Source: Chthoniobacter flavus
GTDB lineage: Bacteria > Verrucomicrobiota > Verrucomicrobiia > Chthoniobacterales > Chthoniobacteraceae
Length of the DNA: 64,000 nt
NCBI GenBank assembly: GCA_945861435.1
Contig: CAMAUX010000005.1
Coordinates: forward strand, 62,001 to 126,000
Direction: 5' to 3'
The notes beneath the pieces were generated by a model. That model searched no databases. It worked only from the letters and a program-made list of their open reading frames with translations, and was not told the origin of the DNA. Shown piece after piece: positions 40,583 through 51,556 of this stretch; position 1 is the stretch's first letter, and each line of letters begins with the position of its first letter. The position numbers and the translations under genes were made by a program.

Positions 40583-41164
40583 CTTTAGTTTCGTTATAGC
40601 TCTCGATTGATCCGACGCGTCCGCCTCGCTTCACACCGGCCGCAAGCGCATCGTGACTCGCCGGAGTGTTAGCGCGTCCATCGCCCCACGCGCAACGCCG
40701 GGAATACTCGGCCCCAGTTTCATCCGGCGATCGATCCGCCTGCCAATCCCCCCCCAAGGCCGCGCCACAGCCCTCTGACAAGCGCACCATCACTGCCAGG
40801 GTTTCCCCCGATCAGCTTGACGCGCCCCCCCACGTACTGGCCCGCCAGAGCGCGCCCCTCCCTTCTCAACCTCAGTCCCACGCCGCTCGCGCCGGACCCC
40901 AAGGAGAATCAGCAACAGCGGGACACTCCAGAATGGTCCTCAGAGCAGGGCATCGGCCATGCCTCGATGGGTTAGCTCGGCCACGAATCAGTCGCTCTCA
41001 CCGTCCGCATGCCGGAGGCATGAAAGCAATGAGCCGGTCGGTGAACGCAATCCGCAAAGCGGATGGAGGGAACCACCGGTGCCCGTTCCCCACCCGACGC
41101 GCCCCGGGCTGGGGCGCGAGAAGGACGATGATGCGATGAACTTTTGCCTGTCTTTATCATCTTC
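40583..41164. other. Intergenic region with a dispersed structured element
   Basis: 582 bp without an acceptable gene between larA and an esterase gene, both on the minus strand. The right part (41007-41126) is one copy of the structured repeat listed separately. The rest shows no clear promoter, terminator or RNA gene; frames across it are Ser/Pro/Arg-rich and look non-coding. Confidence 0.6.
41007..41126 (+). repeat. Structured interspersed repeat, copy A
   Basis: 120 bp that aligns along its length with 51290-51410. Conserved blocks are GCATGCCGGAGGCATGA, AGCCGGTCGGTGA, GAGGGAACCACCGG (GAAGGGAACCACCGG in copy B) and GCGCGAGAAGGAC. Hairpins are visible: CATGCC/GGCATG, ATCCGC/GCGGAT, and CGCGCCCC/GGGGCGCG before GAGAAGGAC. 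Two copies 10 kb apart, both intergenic, point to a mobile or structured RNA-like element. Confidence 0.8.
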
Positions 41165-42061
41165 TCAAAGCACTCCCACCCTCATCAACCACTGCCGGCA
41201 TTTCTCCGGCCAGACACCCACCTCCTTGTCGGACCGCAGGCCGTACCCATGACCGCCTGTGGCACAGAGGAAGAACTCGTTCGCAACCTGCGCTGCTTCC
41301 AACGCCGCGTGATACACTTTGCTCCCGGCCACCAAGGATCGATCATCCTCCGTGTGCACGATGAACGTCGGCGGCGTCCGGCCGCTGACAGGCAAATCCG
41401 CAGCCAGCTTTCCCGCCACCCGCGAGAGATACGCGGGGTAAATCAGAAGGGCAAAATCCGGCCGAAGCTTTTCCTCATCCACACCATCTAAACTCAAATA
41501 ACTGGCCTGGTCCGCATTGGTGCTCAACCGCGCGCACAGATGACCGCCGGCGGAAAAACCCATCACCCCCACACGGTCCGCGGCAATGTTCCATGCAGAA
41601 GCATTGTGACGGACCATCCGCACCGCGCGCTGCAAATCTTGGAACGCTCCGTCCTGATTCCCCGGCACCCGGTATTTGAGGACGATCCCGGTGATCCCAA
41701 TGGAGTTGAGCCACGCCACCACCTCGCTTCCCTCCTTGTTGTAAGCCAGAAGGTTGTAGCCGCCCCCCGGGCAGATGATCACCGCCGGGGTCGCCTTTCC
41801 AACTCCACGCGCCCTGAACACCGTGATCGTCGGCTCGCTGATATCCGTGATCCGCACCACGTTGTCGCCCCTCGCCGGCAGTTCCTTCTCCGAACCCGCC
41901 GCTACATGCCCCGGCATCTTACCGTCCTTCCACAGTGCGACGACCTCGGCGGCTGTTTCCCCCGCGCGACTTGGCATTCCCACACCAATCCACAAGACCG
42001 CGGCGAGGAAGCACACTAAAGCATTCACCTTCATCGTTTGAGTAAAGAGGCGCTGGTTCAT
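41165..42061 (-). CDS. Exported alpha/beta hydrolase (esterase-like)
   Basis: 298 residues, or 289 from ATG 42034, with a signal peptide (VNALVCFLAAVLWIGVGMP). The alpha/beta fold motifs are VIICPGGGYNLLAYNKEGSE (oxyanion region), the nucleophile elbow GVMGFSAGGHLCARL, an acid in FIVHTEDDRSLVAGS and a His in TGGHGYGLR. It resembles the BD-FAE/acetyl-esterase group that removes acetyl or feruloyl groups from polysaccharides. It follows the larger hydrolase gene by 28 bp and is probably in its operon. Confidence 0.85.
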   Translation of the reverse strand: MNQRLFTQTMKVNALVCFLAAVLWIGVGMPSRAGETAAEVVALWKDGKMPGHVAAGSEKELPARGDNVVRITDISEPTITVFRARGVGKATPAVIICPGGGYNLLAYNKEGSEVVAWLNSIGITGIVLKYRVPGNQDGAFQDLQRAVRMVRHNASAWNIAADRVGVMGFSAGGHLCARLSTNADQASYLSLDGVDEEKLRPDFALLIYPAYLSRVAGKLAADLPVSGRTPPTFIVHTEDDRSLVAGSKVYHAALEAAQVANEFFLCATGGHGYGLRSDKEVGVWPEKCRQWLMRVGVL

Positions 42062-51199: not shown

Positions 51200-51289
51200 A
51201 ACCCTCCTTCCGTCACTCTCGTGCATCGGCGCGCGAAGGTGTTCCCCGATGGAAATTTTGCCTGCCCCGATCGGTTCACCACGCCGTCA

Positions 51290-51410
51290 GCATGCCGGAG
51301 GCATGAGAGAAATTAGCCGGTCGGTGACCGCAGTCCGCAACGCGGATGAAGGGAACCACCGGATCGCGATTCCAATCGCGACGCGCCCCGTCAGCGGGCG
51401 CGAGAAGGAC
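51290..51410 (+). repeat. Structured interspersed repeat, copy B
   Basis: 121 bp homologous to 41007-41126. The hairpin positions are shared but some stems differ in sequence: CGCGCCC/GGGCGCG here against CGCGCCCC/GGGGCGCG in copy A, and a perfect TCGCGATT/AATCGCGA stem where copy A has a weak one. Keeping stems while changing bases suggests structure matters. Confidence 0.8.
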
Positions 51411-51556
51411 AACCATGCAGGCTGATTTTCCCCGTCTCAATCGTCTCCGTTGGTGAGGGATCCCAGGCAGGAAACACACTCCCGGCATGACGTCAAAACC
51501 CCGCGTGGGGTTTAAGCCCCGGTAGACCGACAGGACCCAGCGTGCGAGGGAGGGAC

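Follow-up and report, generated by a model that had tools for sequence, protein, structure and literature searches.

Two intergenic stretches of the window (the whole 64,000-nucleotide piece of Chthoniobacter flavus DNA analysed here) carry the same structured sequence, which raises the question whether this is a non-coding RNA, a mobile hairpin, an att-like recombination site or a signal serving the neighbouring genes. A preliminary description made from the sequence alone had placed the two copies at 41007-41126 and 51290-51410. Both were found there, with slightly wider boundaries (Table 1). Over 127 bp they share 83% identity, both lie on the plus strand, and the common blocks, hairpins and variable stems noted between them are all present.

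Anatomy and covariation of the element

The element begins with hairpin I, which has a CCGGAGG apex, followed by a linker of about 10 nucleotides ending in NTAG, the long two-part hairpin II (CCGGTGG/CCACCGG), a variable stretch, hairpin III (GCGCCCC/GGGGCGC) and the motif GAGAA, giving a unit of about 105-135 nucleotides. The fold into hairpins I, II and III was derived from a MAFFT alignment of 32 copies from the same genome. Of the three or four hairpins described earlier, three hold, whereas comparison across genera gives little support for the small fourth stem. The foot 5' of hairpin II reads TTAG in 38, ATAG in 11 and GTAG in 9 of 66 aligned copies (58 of 66 together), the strict GTAG being a minority form.

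Table 1. Positions of the two element copies and their parts in the window; R1 is a covariance model built from the element family.
Feature	Position	Strand	Basis
Copy 1, element (~130 nt)	41004..41134	+	model R1, 136.6 bits, E 1.4e-26; sequence
Copy 1, hairpin I, CATGCC-GGA-GGCATG	41008..41022	+	stem covaries across genera
Copy 1, foot TGAG, 5' of hairpin II (NTAG in most copies)	41030..41033	+	foot statistics, 66 aligned copies
Copy 1, hairpin II: outer stem CCGGTCGGT/ACCACCGG, inner stem ATCCGC-AAA-GCGGAT	41034..41079	+	alignment, fold
Copy 1, hairpin III, CGCGCCC/GGGCGCG	41098..41118	+	covaries across genera
Copy 1, conserved tail AGAAGGAC	41119..41126	+	alignment
Copy 2, element (~130 nt)	51287..51418	+	model R1, 142.8 bits, E 7.6e-28; sequence
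Copy 2, hairpin I, CATGCC-GGA-GGCATG	51291..51305	+	alignment, fold
Copy 2, foot TTAG	51313..51316	+	sequence; foot statistics
Copy 2, hairpin II	51317..51362	+	alignment, fold
Copy 2, variable fourth hairpin TCGCGATT..AATCGCGA	51364..51381	+	fold; without cross-genera support as a conserved stem
Copy 2, hairpin III, CGCGCCC/GGGCGCG	51382..51402	+	alignment, fold
Copy 2, conserved tail AGAAGGAC	51403..51410	+	alignment

The stems change in sequence and stay paired, as had been noticed from the two window copies, and the covariation is strong both within the genome and across genera. Within the genome we counted 19 two-sided cells compared to 7.3 expected, and across genera 226 compared to 77.5 in 66 copies whose alignment was fitted to the structure; both values lie above all shuffles. 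The covariation score of the same 66 copies was 0.238; shuffling gave 0.093 (sd 0.005), and slid pairings did not exceed 0.034. In a separate MAFFT alignment of 51 copies, made independently and with the pairs projected from one sequence, there were 187 two-sided cells compared to 83 (shuffle maximum 106, slides 46-55). Hairpins I and III are best supported, with up to four standard pair types per position in hairpin I. In hairpin II the outer part hardly varies, and we therefore infer its pairing from complementarity. In terms of folding energy copy 1 is unexceptional (z -0.94) and copy 2 exceptional (z -4.5). The preliminary description was right in proposing selection for structure: it had named a lack of further copies and of covariation as evidence against its proposal, and the opposite was found in both respects.

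Flank profiles of the copies in this genome did not yield clean element ends. They revealed a conserved downstream module of about 30 nucleotides and a variable upstream module beyond the core. The downstream module (GAGGAAATTTTGCCTGTCCCTATCGGCTCC) follows most of the genome's copies (e.g. at 41135-41165 in the window) and was also found alone or inverted, e.g. near 51252-51275; it may be a repeat in its own right or a target for insertion.

Copy number and distribution

An element "present twice" turned out to be a large undercount. A blastn search of the whole genome gave 47 matches, a covariance model search at least 84 copies, and collecting copies by region resulted in 100 distinct copies in the genome DNA examined. 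Many of them form clusters, spaced 150-500 bp and mostly pointing the same way, and several lie at contig ends. Copies in this genome are mostly single or in such same-direction clusters, tail-to-tail pairs being rare. The clusters suggested an integron-like cassette array, which we rejected as the copies that were read have no genes between them.

When genes were called with a simple, approximate codon model, only 3 of 89 copies were found to overlap one. With the same approximate gene calls, 37 intergenic intervals containing copies comprise 19 tandem, 11 convergent and 7 divergent arrangements. In the tandem intervals, 16 copies are oriented like the genes and 9 opposite to them, i.e. there is no fixed relation to the neighbours; a riboswitch-like leader was rejected on account of this mixed orientation. 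Both window copies are single copies and not pairs. Copy 1 sits between two minus-strand genes encoding a lactate racemase-like LarA and an alpha/beta hydrolase; the genes on either side of copy 2 are divergent and encode a PSD1/PSCyt2-type and a SnoaL-like protein. Both copies are probably passive members of the family, and any influence on adjacent genes would be incidental. A contig scan with the neighbouring hydrolase recovered relatives and nothing informative on the element.

A DNA similarity search in three other genomes of the genus gave no match to the element. The species-specific repeat that this seemed to indicate is ruled out by the covariance model search across Verrucomicrobiota genomes, which had been suggested as a check. 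Of 40 genomes of the family, 28 gave the same architecture with other stem sequences, many of these matches having E-values of only 1e-4 to 1e-6 with a rough model calibration, and a broader model detected the element in 25 of 194 genomes sampled from the phylum. Each genome has its own stem sequences on the common frame. At one locus (L037 1375-1665) a longer inverted repeat (TGTCATGCACTTTG..AAAGTGCATGACA) surrounds an element pair, the whole lying in a GC-rich array of repeats.

Y1 transposase genes, gene-less pairs and Acido-Lenti-1

The genome contains one full-length Y1_Tnp gene, with inverted elements on both sides whose 3' tails point toward the gene. Such two-sided inverted flanking was found at 21 of the 63 Y1 (HUH) genes of the family, this gene included, and one-sided flanking at 5 more; the remaining 37 are not flanked by the element. 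At the 21 genes the start codon has one element next to it and the stop codon the inverted one, within about 20 bp in most cases and up to about 180 bp in a few. Flanked genes occur on either strand, and some relatives possess several Y1 genes per genome. On the transposase tree the flanking label is clustered (8 label changes compared to 17.4 after shuffling), with 17 of the 21 flanked genes in a single clade of 20. The copies flanking the genome's own Y1 gene score 49-72 bits with the family model compared to about 100-156 bits for most dispersed copies. It had been suggested to look for a common transposase or integrase type next to the copies: the Y1 transposase, the enzyme type covered systematically, is the one found consistently beside the element, and an att-like site for an integrase is accordingly unsupported.

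Many Y1 genes outside the main clade have strong inverted flanks of different sequence and apparently the same layout. A second flanking element of this kind was observed next to 150-aa Y1 genes (L087 1316-2108, also L086, L110 and L122). It consists of CATACCAGCCTGGGGC..GCCCCAGG and a CGCCGAAGGCG-type hairpin and, judged by eye from a few loci, comprises a hairpin, a linker, a CCAG-footed hairpin and a third hairpin, a three-hairpin layout with a sequence unlike that of the first element. Furthermore, there are five larger reading frames of 391-481 aa with a partial Y1-like domain (L069-L073; G000 C20, C86, C15, C64 and C78), and no significant element match was obtained within the stretches examined around them.

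In relatives, tail-to-tail element pairs without a gene between them are frequent, measuring about 190-300 bp in all. Genomes G028 and G033 carry one such pair in frame within a long reading frame (L036 1386-1616 and L047 1389-1625), identified as a DNA methylase from its motifs and not by a family search. The pair keeps the frame open and adds roughly 80-110 residues. In the homologous methylase genes of G025 and G017 the site is empty: 15 bp of unaligned sequence in G025 face 345 bp in G028, with flanks of 90-96% identity. This comparison represents one site, where G028 and G033 perhaps share one event, and the junctions are too unclean to define the element ends.

The enzyme of about 148 aa carries the motifs DH[VI]H, WQ and YxxxQxxHH and a C-terminal extension (alignment A4). 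NCBIfam places it in the IS200/IS605 family (NF033573, 56.9 and 61.1 bits, cut-off 55), while the score of 20.6 bits with the RAYT model NF047646 is far below the cut-off of 80. By length and motifs it fits TnpAY1 subclass 1.2, an assignment made by comparing the alignment motifs with Table 1 and the text of PMC6006769 and not with a subclass HMM. The predicted structure (pLDDT 87.8) has IS608 and ISDra2 TnpA as best matches by E-value and aligns to TnpA_REP (4er8) with a TM score of 0.60 and the lowest rmsd of these. Hence, the enzyme is predicted to have an HUH fold like IS608 TnpA and TnpA_REP.

Part of the element may already be catalogued under another name. Acido-Lenti-1 (RF01687) appears in Weinberg et al. 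2010 (PMC2864571) as a probable RNA found in Acidobacteria and Lentisphaerae. An Rfam search of the window at the gathering threshold gave no match, RF01687 included; a permissive search gave weak RF01687 matches antisense on the 5' end of the element. Across the phylum RF01687 exceeds the gathering score in 26 of 194 genomes. Among 27 RF01687 loci scanned with the element model 11 gave a match at the same place, always on the opposite strand and starting 4-5 nucleotides outside. Of the 30 close neighbours among the best 150 RF01687 matches, 12 are oriented as expected for tail-to-tail elements. Eight Y1 genes have one of these 150 matches within 300 bp; three of them (in G211, G217 and G228) have RF01687 on both sides in the expected orientation, and the Y1 gene of G105 also has it on both sides, the second match being sub-threshold. 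The 46 positions of Acido-Lenti-1 correspond to hairpin I, the linker and the hairpin II base, but on the opposite strand, covering less than half of the element and described as RNA. Compared within this phylum, Acido-Lenti-1 appears to be one end of the element read from the other strand. In the AT-rich genome G168 (L199 820-1060) an AT-rich hairpin-linker-TAGCC version occurs as an inverted pair matched by Acido-Lenti-1.

Interpretation and comparison with known systems

Very probably, the element is an unusually large REP/REPIN-like mobile DNA unit that is served in trans by the Y1 (HUH) transposase of about 148 aa and subclass 1.2 type. The RAYT-type mobile hairpin mentioned among the early options is thereby supported by the inverted copies bracketing a Y1/HUH gene, the gene-less pairs and the site found both occupied and empty. 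The complete form would consist of an element, the transposase gene and an inverted element, the 3' tails facing the gene; REPIN-like tail-to-tail pairs, single copies and local clusters would be its non-autonomous forms. Judging from the enzyme family, the hairpins may fold when the strand becomes single-stranded, the enzyme would recognise a hairpin together with the NTAG foot, and cutting and rejoining of single-stranded DNA would copy or move the unit. We infer that all 100 copies of the family in this genome, and not just the variants flanking the Y1 gene, are served by its single Y1 enzyme.

A non-coding RNA acting in trans or in cis and present as many paralogues, in line with the Rfam label of Acido-Lenti-1, would account for the covarying stems and the conserved unpaired stretches, and an overlapping family is indeed catalogued as probable RNA. 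We nevertheless regard it as very unlikely, considering the approximately 100 copies in a single genome, their placement in tandem, convergent and divergent intervals in both orientations, and the transposase gene repeatedly bracketed on both sides by inverted elements; moreover, the catalogued RNA lies on the opposite strand. The free-standing or cis-acting RNA put forward in the preliminary description thus finds no support. That the hairpins are bidirectional transcription terminators or mRNA-stabilising structures retained for gene expression is hardly credible in spite of their intergenic location, their GC-rich stems and the tail-to-tail pairs in relatives: copies lie between divergent genes in 7 of 37 intervals, window copy 2 among them, one pair is located inside the open methylase frame, and the conserved three-part anatomy is more than a terminator needs. 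A secondary effect of the element on neighbouring transcripts is conceivable.

The NCBIfam label of the enzyme as an IS200/IS605 family transposase, its fold nearest to IS608 and ISDra2 TnpA and the organisation element-gene-element would suit a classic insertion sequence of the IS200 type, mobile as one unit, with the elements as its ends and the dispersed copies as deletion remnants (MITEs). This is improbable, too, and like the terminator it was rejected as a main reading. The two flanks are the same element in inverted orientation, whereas the left and right ends of IS608-type elements are not known to be inverted copies; one full-length gene faces about 100 elements in the genome, and gene-less tail-to-tail pairs are frequent. 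Furthermore, enzyme length and motifs match subclass 1.2, which was set apart from insertion sequences by Quentin et al.

Returning to the REP/REPIN-like mobile unit, a wider picture that we consider likely, with less confidence, is a phylum-wide REP-like class in which subclass 1.2 enzymes co-evolve with large three-hairpin elements that keep their architecture and change their stem sequences, 150-aa sister enzymes have a parallel CATACCAGCCTGGGGC-type element, and the Acido-Lenti-1 'RNA' is a wrong-strand piece. This would explain a repeat that is widespread in these genomes, and it suggests that an sRNA family catalogued for bacteria is in fact one end of a mobile DNA hairpin. It also offers a concrete putative enzyme-substrate pair with which to study the reading of large structured single-stranded DNA by HUH enzymes and the co-evolution of enzyme and repeat.

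Among known systems, IS200/IS605 elements (IS608, ISDra2) share the Y1/HUH fold and subterminal hairpins, but here the three-hairpin flanks are inverted and repeated, with many gene-less copies and one gene. TIRtrons/TIRYT (Di Nocera 2013, PMC3733652) likewise have a Y1 gene between inverted repeats that are also copied elsewhere in the genome; however, most of their enzymes belong to class 2.1, and their repeats contain GGGGWSAS, motifs not seen here. With REP/REPIN-RAYT systems (BIMEs, REPtrons; TnpA_REP) the element shares many intergenic palindromic copies, inverted pairs (as gene-less doublets in relatives), one Y1/HUH gene flanked by repeats and, loosely, the foot, its NTAG being comparable to the GTAG of REPs (PMC3733652, PMC6006769). 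REPs are single hairpins of 20-40 bp (REP unit 21-65 nt, PMC6006769), whereas the three-hairpin element of about 105-135 nucleotides is 3-5 times longer than canonical REPs, and its enzyme is of class 1 (Y---Q--HH) and not, like RAYT, of class 2 (Y--NP). Element and enzyme would function in the manner of a REP-RAYT system, but because the short single-hairpin repeat and the class 2 TnpA_REP enzyme are lacking, we do not file them as one.

TnpAY1 class 3 (PMC6006769) includes a Y1 gene flanked by atypical high-copy secondary structures (about 600 in Solibacter usitatus), but it is characterised by NHVH, W[TA], YV[VI]xEQ, a median of 178 aa and a CnGA foot, compared to DHVH, WQ, YxxxQxxHH, 148 aa and NTAG here. 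Subclass 1.2 (PMC6006769) agrees in the length of 148 aa, DH[IV]H, WQ, Y---Q--HH, the C-terminal extension and the low gene copy number. It was described as without REPs and generally without IS ends, mostly from Cyanobacteria and Bacteroidetes (Quentin et al. 2018, PMC6006769), whereas here it occurs in Verrucomicrobiota-type genomes with large structured repeats. Contrary to that description, repeats do flank the enzyme gene. We propose to amend it on this point, which concerns an absence and not a defining trait; the element is a candidate DNA partner for a Y1 transposase subclass reported without one.
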